The position numbers and the translations under genes are program-made. Below, one piece after another: positions 7,373 to 13,125 of a stretch of DNA of 64,000 nucleotides. Source of the stretch: Adlercreutzia muris. Its GTDB lineage: Bacteria > Actinomycetota > Coriobacteriia > Coriobacteriales > Eggerthellaceae. Location: positions 62,001-126,000 of the forward strand of contig NZ_WAJS01000002.1 in assembly GCF_008831045.1 (NCBI RefSeq), in the 5' to 3' direction. The first letter of the stretch is position 1; the number at the start of each line of letters is the position of its first letter. The notes under the pieces are model-generated. The model searched no databases and was not told where the DNA came from. It saw only the letters and a program-made list of their open reading frames with translations.

Positions 7373-8914
7373 ATGACCATGGCCAATCGAGATCGTCGGG
7401 AATACGCCCCCGGGTGCCCCGACACCCCAAAAACAGCGATGCCCATCACCGGGGAAGACGGCGGAAAGGCCGCCGAGCCGTGGCACTTCGGCCTTTCCGC
7501 CCTGCTGAAATTCAAGCTCCCCCGCGTGCCCCTGTTCTTCCTTGGCATCGGCGTATACCGCGCCTGGATCGAAATCGCCTTCGTCGGTTCCTTCGTCAAT
7601 TTCCCCTCCCTGCCCCTGCCCATGCGAGAGTGGTTCGACACCACGGCCGTCTTCGTCATGCTCCTCTGCGTCCTGCTCGCCCGCCGTATCGGCCCCTTTT
7701 ATCGCCGTCGCAGCGTCTTCGTGCTGTGCGGCACCACCATGGTGGCTTCCACAGCCATGCTCTTCGCCACTATTCTGGCTCCGGCCGTTGCACCCTTGCT
7801 CGGCATGCCGGCCGCCGTGCTCGGGGGCATCGGGCTCGGCCTCATCATCCTTATTTGGAGCGAGGTCTACGGTTGCCTGAACCCGCTGCGCGTGACCCTG
7901 TACTACGCGGCCTCCATGATCGCCGGTGCCCTCATCGTCTACGTGTTCATGGGATTCCGCATGGAATGGCTCGCCGTGTTCGCGAGCATCCTGCCCCTTG
8001 CCTCCCTCATCTTTGCCCGTCGGGCCATGGGCGAGGTGCCCGCCGCCGAGCGCCCGGCCCCCGCGGACGTGAAGTTCAAGGCTCCCTGGAAGATATTCCT
8101 GCTCATGGCCTTGTACGCCTTCGCCTACGGCATCATCGAGACGCGCGCCTATTCCGGCAGCTTCGGACCCCACTCCTCGCCGGGCTGCCTCATCGTGGCC
8201 CTCATCATCTTCTTGGGAGTGGCCCTGCGCCGGGAGCGCTTCGACTTCAACTCCATCGTGCGCATCGCCCTGCCGCTCATGATCGTGGCCTTCTGGATGG
8301 TGCCGGCCTTGGGCATCGAGGCCTACGCTCTCAGCGGACCGGCTGCCGTGGGCGGCTACACGGCCGTATCGGTGCTCATCATGACCTTGTGCAGCAACAT
8401 GTGCTACCGCTACGGCGTATCGGCCATCTGGCTCTTCGGCATCGAGCGGTCGGTGCGGCTCGCGTTCATGATCCTCGGCCGGGGCATCGCCTATGTGGGC
8501 CTGACGGCGCACCTCGGCGCCATCGATGGGGCCGCCCTGGTGTCGGGCTTCGCCGTGACCGCCGTGCTGCTAGCCACCTTGCTGCTGTTCCGCCAGAAGG
8601 AGATTACGGGCAACTGGGGCGCGAACCTGCTGACGGGCCGCAGCAAGAGCCCCGAGGGGCTGCACCGCGAGCGCATTGCGGCCCAGTGCGCCGCGGTGGC
8701 AAACCGCTATCGCCTGACGGGCCGTGAGACCGAGATTCTGAACCTGCTGGCCCAGCGCAAGACCGTGGGCATGATCGAGCGGGAGCTGTTCATCGCCAAC
8801 GGCACCGCCAAGGCCCACGTGCGCCACATCTACCAGAAGCTGGACATCCACTCCCGCGAGGAGCTGTTCGCCCTCATCGATCCCGGCGAAGTGGATCCCC
8901 TCGAGGGCAAGTAG
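7373..8914 (+). CDS. LuxR-family regulator with multi-pass membrane sensor domain
   Basis: A 513-residue regulator. Residues about 40-420 are a series of roughly 12 hydrophobic helices, and the C-terminal 70 residues are a LuxR helix-turn-helix: LTGRETEILNLLAQ, then ELFIANGTAKAHVRHIYQKL, then SREELFALI. This architecture is abundant in Eggerthellaceae, where such genes usually sit beside flavin-dependent respiratory reductases and are thought to sense a ligand through the membrane domain. Its neighbour is the truncated flavoprotein on the opposite strand. GGGAGGAAGC precedes ATG 7373; a second in-frame ATG follows six bases later. Almost no untranslated DNA remains upstream, so its native promoter may be lost. 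It is one of the few plus-strand genes here. Confidence 0.87.
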   Translation: MTMANRDRREYAPGCPDTPKTAMPITGEDGGKAAEPWHFGLSALLKFKLPRVPLFFLGIGVYRAWIEIAFVGSFVNFPSLPLPMREWFDTTAVFVMLLCVLLARRIGPFYRRRSVFVLCGTTMVASTAMLFATILAPAVAPLLGMPAAVLGGIGLGLIILIWSEVYGCLNPLRVTLYYAASMIAGALIVYVFMGFRMEWLAVFASILPLASLIFARRAMGEVPAAERPAPADVKFKAPWKIFLLMALYAFAYGIIETRAYSGSFGPHSSPGCLIVALIIFLGVALRRERFDFNSIVRIALPLMIVAFWMVPALGIEAYALSGPAAVGGYTAVSVLIMTLCSNMCYRYGVSAIWLFGIERSVRLAFMILGRGIAYVGLTAHLGAIDGAALVSGFAVTAVLLATLLLFRQKEITGNWGANLLTGRSKSPEGLHRERIAAQCAAVANRYRLTGRETEILNLLAQRKTVGMIERELFIANGTAKAHVRHIYQKLDIHSREELFALIDPGEVDPLEGK

Positions 8915-8988: not shown

Positions 8989-9609
8989 CTACTCTCCCAG
9001 GCCGTACTTCGCCCGCACCCGGGCGAGCTGACCGAGCAGCGGGTTGGCCGCCAACAGCAACGTGAGCGCCGTGGCAACCCCGTGGATGACGTTGACGGGA
9101 AGGCCCGCTCCGTAGATGGCCAGCACGCTGGCCGGAGTGAGGGACGCGAGCATGAGGAATACCGAGCTCGTGTCCAGAATGGGCCCGAGCACCAGAACCA
9201 CGAAGAGGAAGCCGCCACCGGCAAGACCGAGGCGCGCCCAGCCCGAGAGCGGCACGGACAGGCGCGGCCCCACCAGACCGAAGACGAGCCCCGCGCTGCC
9301 GAAGGCCAGCATCTGGAAGGGAGTCCACGGGCCCTGGCCGAAGAGGAACCCCGAGGCGAGAGCCGCCAGAGCTCCGGCCAGAAACCCCTGGCGCGGCCCC
9401 AGGGCCATGCCCGTTATCATGACGACGGCCGCCATGGGCTTGAAGTGGGGCACCGCGGCGAAGGCAGCCCGCGAGGCCACGGCCAGGGCCACCATGACCG
9501 CCAACAGCACGATATCCCGCGCCGCGGGACGGCGGCGCTCGAACCCCACGAGGAAGGGCGCGAGGGCTGCCCCGATGATGAGGATGCTGATCAGGTAGTA
9601 CGGCTTCAC
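8989..9609 (-). CDS. ECF transporter S component, probable corrinoid binding subunit
   Basis: A 206-residue membrane protein with about six helices, of the size and character of ECF S components. The segment FKPMAAVVMITGMALGPRQG followed by an Ala/Gly-rich helix and a GQGPWTPFQMLAFG loop is typical of these substrate-binding proteins. It starts with GTG overlapping the EcfA-EcfA stop by four bases (GTGA), so it is translationally coupled and is the last gene of the cobalamin-riboswitch operon. That placement, rather than the sequence, is the basis for proposing cobalamin or a related corrinoid as substrate. It would pair with EcfT and the fused ATPase encoded just upstream. The exact S-component subfamily is not assigned. 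Confidence 0.78.
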   Translation of the reverse strand: MKPYYLISILIIGAALAPFLVGFERRRPAARDIVLLAVMVALAVASRAAFAAVPHFKPMAAVVMITGMALGPRQGFLAGALAALASGFLFGQGPWTPFQMLAFGSAGLVFGLVGPRLSVPLSGWARLGLAGGGFLFVVLVLGPILDTSSVFLMLASLTPASVLAIYGAGLPVNVIHGVATALTLLLAANPLLGQLARVRAKYGLGE

Positions 9610-11534
9610 AGGCGCTCCCCTTCCGCCCCTTGCGCAGCCACCGACCCACAGGCGGCGATCACCTGCCCGTCGGTGACCGTATCGGCAAAGACGTCGCGGC
9701 TCATACGGCTCGCTGCCGTGGTGTAGAAGCGGTTGGCCCCGAAGAAGCGCTGTGGCTCGTCATCGGCGGACACAATTCCCTGGAAGAGCAGCACGCAGCG
9801 GTCAGCCCACGTGGCGCAGAACTCCATATCGTGGGAGGCCATGACCACGGCCACCCCGCGCTCGGTCAGGGCGCAGAGCAGCTGGCCGAAGCGCTTTTTG
9901 AAGAGGACGTCGGTGCCCTTCGTCGGCTCATCGAGGAGGAGCACGGTGGGGCTGCCCAACAGCACCTTGGCCAGGGCCGCCCGCTGCTGCTCACCGCCGG
10001 ATAGGTCGAGAGGATGGCGCTCCAGCAGGCCGCCGAGGTCGCACAGCTCCACGACTTCGGCCTGATTGCCGCCGGCCACTTTCGCCATTTCCGCCATTTC
10101 CGCCATTTCCGCCAGCTCCGCGGCCACCGTGGACCGGGAGAACAGCAGCTGCGGGTCCTGGGGCAGCAGGGCCACACCCGGAAAGGGCCCGCGCCGGCCA
10201 GGGCATCCCGGGACCCGCACAGAGCCGCGCAGCGGACGGGCGAGACCGGCCGCCACCTTGAGCAGCGTTGTCTTCCCCGCCCCATTGCCGCCGAGTAGGG
10301 CGCAGAGGCTGCCCCGAGGCACCTCGAGGGACAGCCCCCGCAGCACGTCGGCTCCGGCGCGGTCGTAGCGGAACCATACGTCGCGCAGGGCCAGAGCTGC
10401 ATCGCGACCGTGGATGCCGACGCTTCGGGAGGCCCCGGTCTTGCGGCCGAAACCATCGGCCGAACAGCGCTCGGGCTCGGCAGCCGAAGGAGACGTGAAG
10501 CCGGACTCCTCGCTGCAGCCCATCGGCTCCGCGGGCACAGGAGTCGCAGGCGCGGCCCCGTGACCGCGCTCGGCACACCAGCGGCGCAGCCAGCAGCGGC
10601 CCTCGCGCACCGTAAGGGGCGCGGGCACGGCATCTTCCGCAGGAGTTCCGTCGCCAATTGTCGGGAGGGAGGCGCGAGGGCCGGGCGCAGTGGCAGCAAC
10701 GCGACCGCCGGGCCCAACAGCGGCGCTGGTCGCCCCAGCCTCTTCTCGGGCGCCAGGTATTTCCCGTCCCATCACCCCGTGATAAATGCGCACGGGAGCC
10801 GGAAGGGCCGTGACCAGGGGACTGCCTGTGGCAAAGAGGCGCGCAGCCACGGCCCGGGGCTCCCCGCAAGCCGCCACCGTGCCCTCTTCGAGCACCAGCA
10901 CCCGATGAGCGCTGGCAAAGGCCTCTTCTATCCGCTGCTCGCCCATGATAACCGTGACGCCCAGCTCCTCGTTGAGCCGTCGCACCAGGGCCATGAACTC
11001 GGTAGCGGCCAAAGGATCGAGCTGGGCCGTGGGCTCGTCGAGCACGAGCACGGCGGGGTCGGCGGCCATAACGGCCGCCAGGTTCAGGCGCTGGCATTGA
11101 CCGCCCGACAGATCGGCGGTCGCGCGGTCGAACCACCCATCGAGGCCGAAGAAGCTCGCCGCCTCGGCGATACGCGCCCGGGCAAGGGCCGGATCGCACC
11201 CAAGGCTTTCCAGGCCGAAGGCCATCTCGCCGGCCACCCGGTCGGCAACAATCTGGTCGCGCGGATTCTGCATGACGAACCCGATGCGCCGGGCCTGCTC
11301 GCGCCGGGACACTTCCTCTAGGGGACGGCCCTGGAAGAGCACGCGGCCCGTGCGGGCGCCATGGGGCGCAAGGGCGCTCTTCAGGTGCCGCAGCAGGGTG
11401 GTTTTCCCGCTGCCGCTGGGTCCGACCACAAGCAGGTATTCCCCAGGCTCTACCGTCAGGGACACCCCTCTCAGGGCCGGCACGGCGGCGCCGGGATAGG
11501 CAAACGTCAGCGCCTCGCACGCGAGAAGTGCCAT
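9606..11534 (-). CDS. ECF transporter ATPase, two ABC domains fused (EcfA-EcfA)
   Basis: A 642-residue protein with two complete ABC ATPase domains that energise the ECF importer. Domain 1 (about 1-250) has Walker A GPSGSGKTT, signature LSGGQCQRLN and Walker B VLVLDEP. Domain 2 (about 395-600) has Walker A GGNGAGKTT, signature LSGGEQQRAA and Walker B VLLLDEP. They are joined by a low-complexity Ala/Gly/Pro linker of about 130-150 residues. Most ECF systems make EcfA1 and EcfA2 separately, so here the heterodimer is built into one chain. A 9-bp tandem repeat inside domain 2 encodes AEM units. The ATG at 11532-11534 overlaps the EcfT stop by 28 bases; a much longer open frame upstream is the shadow of EcfT. 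Confidence 0.87.
   Translation of the reverse strand: MALLACEALTFAYPGAAVPALRGVSLTVEPGEYLLVVGPSGSGKTTLLRHLKSALAPHGARTGRVLFQGRPLEEVSRREQARRIGFVMQNPRDQIVADRVAGEMAFGLESLGCDPALARARIAEAASFFGLDGWFDRATADLSGGQCQRLNLAAVMAADPAVLVLDEPTAQLDPLAATEFMALVRRLNEELGVTVIMGEQRIEEAFASAHRVLVLEEGTVAACGEPRAVAARLFATGSPLVTALPAPVRIYHGVMGREIPGAREEAGATSAAVGPGGRVAATAPGPRASLPTIGDGTPAEDAVPAPLTVREGRCWLRRWCAERGHGAAPATPVPAEPMGCSEESGFTSPSAAEPERCSADGFGRKTGASRSVGIHGRDAALALRDVWFRYDRAGADVLRGLSLEVPRGSLCALLGGNGAGKTTLLKVAAGLARPLRGSVRVPGCPGRRGPFPGVALLPQDPQLLFSRSTVAAELAEMAEMAEMAKVAGGNQAEVVELCDLGGLLERHPLDLSGGEQQRAALAKVLLGSPTVLLLDEPTKGTDVLFKKRFGQLLCALTERGVAVVMASHDMEFCATWADRCVLLFQGIVSADDEPQRFFGANRFYTTAASRMSRDVFADTVTDGQVIAACGSVAAQGAEGERL
10078..10115. 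repeat. 9-bp tandem repeat within the fused EcfA gene
   Basis: About four head-to-tail copies of TTTCCGCCA (first copy imperfect). On the coding strand they give the repeating tripeptide A-E-M, shortly after the Q-loop region of ATPase domain 2. The unit is a multiple of three, so slippage would change the copy number without shifting frame. Confidence 0.75.
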
Positions 11535-12415
11535 CGCAACCGCTCCCTTCCCATGACGAGGGCGGGCAGAAGCAGCAAAAGCCCGTAGGCCGCCAGGGAC
11601 GCCCCGAACATCGGCTCGGCCGCCGGCATCGCGACCCGGGGGAAGAACGTCGCCTCCGTGGCACCGAGGGCGGCGCCGGCAACTACGACGGCGGCAAGCG
11701 CCCCCATAAGGCCGAGGGCTGCGCCATCCCGCCAGCGGAACGACCAGCACGGCACCGTGGTGCGGCGTCCCGTACCGAAGCCGCGGCTCTCCATGGCACC
11801 GGCCGTGGCCATCCCGTGTTCGAGGGACCAGGCCGACACCGATGCGAGCACTACCGTCGCCTCCCGCACCCGAGCAATCGCGGGCACCTTCGTACCCGAC
11901 CCGCGACCGAGTCCGATGCCGGCCCGCGCTTCGGCCACGGCGGAAGCGCGCCGGCCGAAGCTGGGCACGAGGCGCAGTACCAAGGTGAGCGTCAGCGAGA
12001 CAGCCGGCGCGAAACGGCCGAACAGGTACAGGAGCTTGACCGTATCCATGACACGGTTGAAGCTGGCAAACCACCAGAGCACCGCCGCCAACAGCGCCGC
12101 CACCATCGCGCCGCAGGCAAGGGCCTCGGCAGTATAGGGGCGGCCGCCGGCATAGGTGAACAGAACCGTCTGGCCCAGGGGCACGAACAGCGGGTTCGCC
12201 AGGGCGACTACAGCGGCGAGAGGCACCGCGGCCCCGATCAACCGCCCTGCCGAGCGCCCTTGGAGGAGCAACAACGTAAGGGCCGCGGCCCCCGCGCCCA
12301 CCAGGGCAAAGGGCGGGCTGAGCAAGAATACGCCCAGCCCGATGGCACACAGGAAGAATCCCAGTTCGACGATGGGATGAACGGGGATGAGAAATGCTGT
12401 CGGAGGTGTTCCCAT
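11507..12415 (-). CDS. ECF transporter transmembrane (T) component
   Basis: A 302-residue EcfT-type scaffold subunit linking the S component to the ATPases. It has hydrophobic helices at both ends and the cytoplasmic coupling region with two short Ala-Arg-Gly type motifs, seen here as AVAEARAGIG and AMESRGFGTG (the usual form is A-R-G/S at the ends of the two coupling helices). The ribosome-binding site is modest. It begins 24 bases after the DUF4430 lipoprotein gene and its end overlaps the ATPase gene by 28 bases. It is the second gene of the riboswitch-controlled operon. Confidence 0.83.
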   Translation of the reverse strand: MGTPPTAFLIPVHPIVELGFFLCAIGLGVFLLSPPFALVGAGAAALTLLLLQGRSAGRLIGAAVPLAAVVALANPLFVPLGQTVLFTYAGGRPYTAEALACGAMVAALLAAVLWWFASFNRVMDTVKLLYLFGRFAPAVSLTLTLVLRLVPSFGRRASAVAEARAGIGLGRGSGTKVPAIARVREATVVLASVSAWSLEHGMATAGAMESRGFGTGRRTTVPCWSFRWRDGAALGLMGALAAVVVAGAALGATEATFFPRVAMPAAEPMFGASLAAYGLLLLLPALVMGRERLRWHFSRARR

Positions 12416-12439
12416 CAGCGAGACGAGGAGGTCGGCGCC

Positions 12440-12937
12440 CTAGGCGACGAAGAAGCTCCACTCGACGCTGTCGCCCGCAGCCAGGGTACAGCTATCGCAA
12501 CCCTCCATGACCTGCTCGTTGTTCACCGTGAACACCCAGCCGCTCGCTTCGCCCTGCGACCCATTGGCCACGCCGTTGATGGCGGTGACGTACTTCCCGT
12601 AGTCGCTATCCTCGGCCTGCACGTCCCAGCCCGTGGCCTCAAGGGCATCGAAGACGGTGGCGCCTTCGGGCAACGACACCTCTACGGTCTCGGAGGGGGC
12701 ATCGGCCCCCTCGGGCATGGCGACGGACACAGCAATCGACGCGCCTTGCTCGGCGTTATCGGAAGACGATTCGGCACCCTGCTCGGCGGCCGGAGTTGCC
12801 GGGGCGTCGACGGCGCCATCGCCAGCCGCCGGCTCGGTGCCGGCGCACCCAGCCAGGGCCAGAGCGGCGGCGCAGGCCAGGGCCAACAGGGCCGCGGACA
12901 GCTTCTTCCAGGAGGACGCAACGATAGACTGGTACAT
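12440..12937 (-). CDS. DUF4430 lipoprotein, probable extracellular corrinoid-binding protein
   Basis: A 165-residue lipoprotein with a basic N-terminus (SSWKKLS), a hydrophobic stretch and lipobox LALAGC, then an acidic/Ala-rich spacer and a DUF4430 domain. The domain shows ATVFDALEATGW, YGKYVTAINGVANG, SGWVFTVNNEQV and a final SVEWSFF. DUF4430 is structurally related to the C-terminal domain of the animal cobalamin carriers (intrinsic factor/transcobalamin). A predicted cobalamin riboswitch lies directly upstream and ECF transport genes follow, so capture of cobalamin or another corrinoid at the cell surface is the natural reading. The ATG at 12935-12937 is preceded by AGAAAGG; the longer open frame upstream runs through the riboswitch and is not coding. 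Confidence 0.85.
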   Translation of the reverse strand: MYQSIVASSWKKLSAALLALACAAALALAGCAGTEPAAGDGAVDAPATPAAEQGAESSSDNAEQGASIAVSVAMPEGADAPSETVEVSLPEGATVFDALEATGWDVQAEDSDYGKYVTAINGVANGSQGEASGWVFTVNNEQVMEGCDSCTLAAGDSVEWSFFVA

Positions 12938-12954
12938 GAGGCAAACCTTTCTCT

Positions 12955-13125
12955 CCAGGGCTCGTGCCTCTCGGCTTGGTATTCCGACTTCGTCCCGCCC
13001 GCGAGCGACCGCCCGTTGAAGCCCGCGCTTCACGGCGCCGGTCGCCACCGGTTCGGGAGCCATACGGTTACTGGCATAGCGCGGGATTCTCACCCGCATT
13101 CCCCAAGGATCAGGCGCTCCCGGCG
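12955..13125 (-). promoter_or_regulatory. Cobalamin riboswitch
   Basis: On the minus strand the leader contains the recognisable conserved pieces in order: GGGGAATGCGGGTGAGAATC (about 13084-13103), a CAGTAACC/TATGGC core section (about 13060-13075), a long paired arm, and the B12-box-like GTCGGAATACC followed by AAGCCGAGAGG (about 12970-12989). The ribosome-binding site of the DUF4430 gene is about 20 bases further on, so control is probably at translation or by a nearby hairpin. The outer boundaries are approximate. A covariance search against the Rfam cobalamin model would settle the class. Confidence 0.8.

Follow-up and report, generated by a model that had tools for sequence, protein, structure and literature searches.

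Among energy-coupling factor (ECF) importers, the CbrT/CbrTUV systems were reportedly predicted by Rodionov in 2009. One of them, ECF-CbrT, was validated by Santos in 2018 and imports cobalamin and cobinamide, with hemin not competing (PMC5997447), and CbrUVT appears among the listed B12 systems (PMC6593275). As for capture proteins, the pertinent passage of Burroughs et al. (2007; PMC1796856) describes bacterial transcobalamin-like domains fused to toroids and encoded in CbiO/CbiQ operons, in hosts without B12 synthesis, and proposes a role in B12 scavenging. A more recent table for Lacticaseibacillus carries the entry "Additional lipoprotein component of putative cobalamin ECF transporter"; in that paper, LGG_02295, a DUF4430 protein, adjoins rtpR (PMC9963975). 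Here we analyze an operon from Adlercreutzia muris, located in a stretch of 64,000 nucleotides (hereafter the window; contig NZ_WAJS01000002.1, positions 62,001 to 126,000), in which a cobalamin-clan riboswitch precedes the genes for a DUF4430 lipoprotein, EcfT, a fused EcfA-EcfA' and a CbrT-related S component. The operon very probably serves corrinoid import, with the lipoprotein capturing the substrate for the CbrT-like S component. The initial annotation of this locus had seen an unusual hybrid design in the association of a lipoprotein with an ECF importer, a view that we do not retain, as the DUF4430-ECF pairing is common in the family and in Bacillota, was predicted in 2007 (PMC1796856) and has already been annotated (PMC9963975). 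Given that prediction, the listing of CbrUVT and the lipoprotein annotation, the operon belongs to a known, experimentally unproven kind; what is new here is the test of the riboswitch regulon, the fold match, the census of split and fused toroids, and the beta-only form found in Eggerthellaceae.

A cobalamin riboswitch and its regulon

All five elements of the operon were confirmed at the coordinates of the initial annotation; they lie on the minus strand of the window, from 13122 down to 8989:

12958..13122 (-): cobalamin-clan riboswitch and operon leader, a variant of Rfam AdoCbl-II (Rfam core 13025-13117)
12440..12937 (-): DUF4430 lipoprotein, 165 aa, ATG start, lipobox LAGC (PF14478, 62 bits)
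11507..12415 (-): EcfT, probably a divergent CbrV-type transmembrane coupling subunit (CbiQ, 17 bits; operon position)
9606..11534 (-): fused EcfA-EcfA', a CbrU-type duplicated ATPase, 642 aa (two ABC_tran domains)
8989..9609 (-): ECF S component, CbrT-related, 7 predicted helices (PF07155, 45 bits; profile against the PDB; AlphaFold2)

Scans and coordinates bear out both this gene order and the tight packing that had been described, with a gap of 24 nt between the DUF4430 and EcfT genes and overlaps of 28 nt between EcfT and EcfA and of 4 nt between EcfA and the S component.

A default Rfam scan of the window found no riboswitch, because the score of the leader lies under the gathering threshold: in a focused scan of 601 bases, the AdoCbl-II model (RF01689) matched 13025-13117(-) with 32.5 bits (E 9.2e-6), below its gathering score of 36.5 bits. 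Alignment of the leaders of 17 relatives showed that the core is invariant and that a 3' element, GAAGTCGGAATACC, is conserved outside the Rfam match. Helices P3 (CTTGG/CCAAG, with its 3' strand near 12975-12980) and P5 (GCGGG/CCCGC) covary, one P3 pair alternating between U-A, C-G, G-C and A-U among the aligned leaders, and double-sided compensatory changes were found in 9 of the 19 consensus pairs. As the conserved 3' element and the covarying P3 reach beyond the Rfam match, the aptamer extends to about 12970. Leaders of the same operon in three genomes (G007, G048 and G126) pass the AdoCbl-II gathering score, with 36.6-44.5 bits. The folding energy of the leader alone was uninformative (z -1.07). 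The cobalamin riboswitch claimed in the initial annotation is thus upheld by covariation and regulon placement, though its score is below the AdoCbl-II gathering score, and the leader is a riboswitch of the cobalamin clan (CL00101) and not a strict member of RF01689. Between the aptamer and the start codon (12940-12965 in the window), many relatives conserve a CCCTGGA element, possibly part of the expression platform.

The regulon was surveyed in 138 related genomes, counting AdoCbl-II matches at E<=1e-3. The survey yielded 105 matches. For 75 of them, a DUF4430 domain lies downstream on the same strand at a distance of no more than 9 kb, compared with a chance expectation of about 0.3 (calculated analytically, taking about 1.6 DUF4430 loci in a genome of 2.4 Mb). 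An S component was also found downstream in 56 of these 75 cases, and an S component alone followed six further matches. In nine genomes (G002, G004, G005, G006, G077, G078, G079, G083 and G133, some of them draft assemblies) the DUF4430 gene is separated from the importer genes, but a riboswitch of its own is still present, about 290-380 nt ahead of the domain, so that the association is evidence for a regulon, beyond operon inertia. Among Bacillota operons, RF00174 cobalamin riboswitches scoring 88-123 bits were found upstream in four of the eight loci scanned.

The S component and DUF4430 also occur together across the 138 genomes: 101 have both, nine the S component only, two DUF4430 only and 26 neither (Fisher p 2.6e-18, uncorrected for kinship). 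The operon type is found in most of the Eggerthellaceae examined and in many Bacillota, and the operon position of EcfT is conserved in 40 Eggerthellaceae loci. A scan of genome contigs recovered at least 494 relatives of the S component, and DUF4430 is carried by 54 of 77 S-component loci outside Eggerthellaceae. In many relatives the operon starts with a giant protein bearing one or several DUF4430 domains.

The predicted importer and its surface lipoprotein

The assignment of the S component to a corrinoid rather than a non-corrinoid subfamily, implied by the initial annotation, agrees with a profile built from 50 relatives and searched against the solved structures of the PDB. The top match among them is the B12-specific CbrT (6fnp_A; E 4.5e-20, 75.6 bits), leading by about 40 bits over the next S components (E 2.5e-7, 34.0 bits; E 5.7e-6, 29.5 bits), with one N-terminal helix lying outside the CbrT-aligned stretch. 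The AlphaFold2 model of the protein (pLDDT 95) adopts the fold of ECF S components, with known S components in all of its top 22 VIA rows (Z 10-15.8); 6fnp was not among the Foldseek matches listed, which says nothing against the relationship with CbrT. NCBIfam does not assign the S component to any named specificity, and an identity as FolT was discarded, its 21.6 bits being far under the cut-off of 60. As for the other subunits, EcfT matches Pfam CbiQ with 17 bits, under the cut-off of 25, and has the motifs EARAG and ESRGFG, while the orthologue in Kurthia, encoded at the equivalent place of its operon, reaches 47.8 bits. Both ABC_tran domains of EcfA-EcfA' have intact Walker and signature motifs by motif alignment. 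The H-loop His of NBD1 is replaced by Gln (VIMGEQRIEEA) in the window, in its closest relative and in locus L048, with His in the 16 other aligned relatives, so that the two ATP sites may not be equivalent.

The lipoprotein matches PF14478 (DUF4430) with 62 bits, well above the cut-off (23.8), and its domain was modelled by AlphaFold2 with a pLDDT of about 85. Foldseek placed the beta domain of human transcobalamin first (5no0, 9.1e-7), followed by the bacterial protein 3u7z, of the same fold, and then by transcobalamin, haptocorrin and intrinsic factor. VIA-align gave Z 14-15.5 to the beta domains of haptocorrin, transcobalamin and intrinsic factor, and 9.3 to the next beta-grasp proteins. 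Sequence-only DUF4430 profiles searched against the PDB had transcobalamin at E 0.76 behind unrelated matches, or absent; judged from the predicted model, the relationship is visible at the fold level only. Since the isolated beta domain of human transcobalamin binds cobalamin and assembles with a separately expressed alpha domain (PMC5599065), a beta-only binder is plausible, and from its modelled fold we predict the lipoprotein to be a corrinoid capture protein. No bacterial DUF4430 or transcobalamin-like member with proven corrinoid binding was found in the openly searchable literature.

The lipoprotein had also been called intrinsic-factor-like, which Foldseek and VIA support for the beta-domain fold but which does not extend to the alpha/alpha toroid, absent from the protein. 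Compared with PF01122, the eukaryotic cobalamin-binding family with its N-terminal toroid and C-terminal beta domain, the window protein consists of a lipoprotein leader and a beta domain. An HMM that finds the toroid in 45 related loci found none in the window or at a second DUF4430 locus of the genome (contig C41), the two places in this genome to which the search extended. Outside Eggerthellaceae, in Bacillota, a toroid is present at 40 of 54 DUF4430 loci, fused with DUF4430 in 17 and encoded by an adjacent gene in 31. Pfam Prenyltrans or SQHop supports the toroid in most of those tested, often under the curated cut-off, and PF01122 itself matches weakly, below cut-off, in two of them. This fusion or adjacency constitutes a Rosetta-stone link that supports a corrinoid role for DUF4430.

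Two arrangements of these loci illustrate the range. A Kurthia zopfii locus (L090:3571-9606) has a cobalamin riboswitch followed by a secreted toroid protein, a DUF4430 lipoprotein, EcfT, fused EcfA and the S component, the two halves of transcobalamin being separate adjacent genes. In Lachnospiraceae and Clostridia (L139, L141, L149, L135 and others), toroid and DUF4430 form a single protein in the same importer operons, a domain arrangement that is also that of animal intrinsic factor.

Host B12 metabolism, proposed mechanism and alternatives

The host genome (2.77 Mb in 94 contigs, listed as 99.99% complete) contains no CobS, no BtuR- or PduO-type adenosyltransferase and no NrdJ, and the sole PF02310 B12-binding domain found in it belongs to a short MetH of 826 aa. 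Import of a finished cobamide for methionine synthesis by MetH is therefore the most likely function, and the organism may use methylcobalamin only. The genome has one other AdoCbl-II match, directly in front of the gene for a protein of 1,236 residues in which GLUG repeats and DUF4430 are combined with a membrane anchor at the C terminus. These two loci outside the window are:

L160:2668-5148, contig C2 (some 20 kb away from the window): short MetH (PF02310)
L005:9159-12946, contig C41: second AdoCbl-II riboswitch (42.7 bits, above the gathering score) and the 1,236-aa surface protein

Just past the operon at its 3' side, the opposite (plus) strand of the window (7373-8914) encodes a multi-pass membrane protein whose C-terminal part is of LuxR type, as read from the letters.

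In the mechanism that we propose, low intracellular cobalamin would lead the riboswitch to permit expression of the operon, as is the behavior of its class. On the outer side of the membrane, the anchored DUF4430 lipoprotein would bind the corrinoid in the manner of the transcobalamin beta domain, whose fold it shares in the model, and would hand it to the CbrT-like S component, whose cargo EcfT and EcfA-EcfA' would drive inward with ATP, by analogy with ECF-CbrT. The 1,236-residue protein is a candidate for the first catcher, positioned in the cell wall and relaying corrinoid to the lipoprotein, and the imported finished cobamide would serve the methionine synthase MetH. More tentatively, and with doubt prevailing, Gram-positive gut bacteria may possess a general cell-wall corrinoid relay, leading from large multi-DUF4430 proteins (in relatives, also alpha-toroid proteins) to the lipoprotein and the S component, with separate alpha and beta halves clamping the vitamin and Eggerthellaceae mostly using beta alone. 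The logic of such a relay would be analogous to that of heme relays, a parallel that we draw with the same reserve.

Several observations weigh against corrinoid import by this operon. The leader scores under the AdoCbl-II threshold, and strict sensing of adenosylcobalamin would be surprising in a genome without a known adenosyltransferase; judging from this gene content, the switch may sense methyl- or hydroxo-cobalamin. Only the sequence profile singles out CbrT, as the structure comparisons by Foldseek and VIA do not. The lipoprotein lacks the toroid half, which adds affinity in human transcobalamin, and nine genomes have the S component without a detected DUF4430 (some of these genomes being incomplete), so the lipoprotein may be helpful but not essential. 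FecCD-type importers on contigs C9 and C5 could also carry corrinoids; no cobalamin riboswitch was detected at either. Finally, corrinoid binding by the lipoprotein, hand-over and transport are steps that we infer.

Other functions can be considered for an ECF operon with these components. B12-riboswitch control alone leaves the substrate unfixed, and as ECF-CbrT also carries cobinamide (PMC5997447), the cargo might be a precursor or part of B12 (cobinamide, alpha-ribazole or dimethylbenzimidazole) instead of a finished cobamide. This is distinctly unlikely, because the genome has no CobS and could not complete cobinamide or lower-ligand parts to a cobamide, and because DUF4430 and CbrT relatives are corrinoid proteins. 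Cobalt would be a still less probable cargo: CbiMNQO cobalt ECF transporters are often under B12 riboswitches too, and both EcfT and EcfA fall within the CbiQ/CbiO superfamily, but the S component has no CbiM match and has CbrT as its best solved relative, the absence of CobS means no complete cobamide synthesis, and the lipoprotein is transcobalamin-like. A different tetrapyrrole as ligand, for instance heme, is scarcely credible in view of B12-riboswitch control in two phyla, the transcobalamin fold and the failure of hemin to compete in ECF-CbrT (PMC5997447), even though a heme-scavenging ECF transporter is reported from Staphylococcus lugdunensis (PMC7299338). Cobalt and heme import were rejected on these grounds.

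A further alternative concerns the lipoprotein alone, which could be a surface protein of structural, adhesive or corrinoid-storing function, co-regulated with the importer and not its substrate-binding partner. The giant DUF4430 proteins of relatives bear SLH or GLUG domains, and the importer occurs without DUF4430 in the nine genomes mentioned above. Against these stand the near-constant pairing with the S component, the place of the gene directly before EcfT and the transcobalamin fold, and we regard this alternative as unlikely. Capture of corrinoid by the lipoprotein for the CbrT-like importer thus remains our preferred explanation.

Comparison with known systems

For many gut genomes, Rodionov et al. 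described in 2019 the identification of the B12 transporters as an open problem (PMC6593275), and the operon type described here is a concrete candidate for the missing gut transporters. As its lipoprotein shares the fold of host B12 carriers, it also bears on host-microbe competition for B12. We found no test of the 2007 prediction of transcobalamin-like B12 scavenging in the openly searchable literature, though one may exist elsewhere, and the small toroid-free version offers an easy test case for it.

With animal intrinsic factor, haptocorrin and transcobalamin the window protein has in common the fold of the beta domain (Z 14-15.5; in most rows, 96-103 residues superpose with an rmsd of about 1.8-2.6 A), from which it differs in being a membrane lipoprotein without alpha/alpha toroid and in its low identity (about 13-23%). 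RUMGNA_00854 of Ruminococcus gnavus (PDB 3u7z) is likewise bacterial and of the same fold (Z 14.6), but was deposited as a "putative metal binding protein", unlike our corrinoid reading of the window protein. Bacteroides BtuG (PMC6143338) is also a surface lipoprotein of gut bacteria that captures B12 for an importer; it partners the outer-membrane BtuB in Gram-negative cells, and is likened to the DUF4430 protein by role, with no kinship claimed.

The SLBB proteins in the relevant passage of Burroughs et al. resemble the window protein in joining an extracellular beta-grasp domain of the transcobalamin clade with CbiO/CbiQ-type genes, in hosts without B12 synthesis and with predicted B12 scavenging. 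That passage does not name the S component; added here are control by a riboswitch, the test of the regulon and a family of actinobacteria, and the window protein, compared with the toroid fusions described there, has no toroid. The nearest importer is ECF-CbrT of Lactobacillus delbrueckii and the CbrTUV systems, with which the operon shares a related S component (E 4.5e-20), a probable EcfT with paired ATPases, and a B12 context. The module used by CbrT also serves other S components, whereas the window operon encodes a dedicated module with fused ATPases, to which it adds an N-terminal helix in the S component and a leading DUF4430 lipoprotein.

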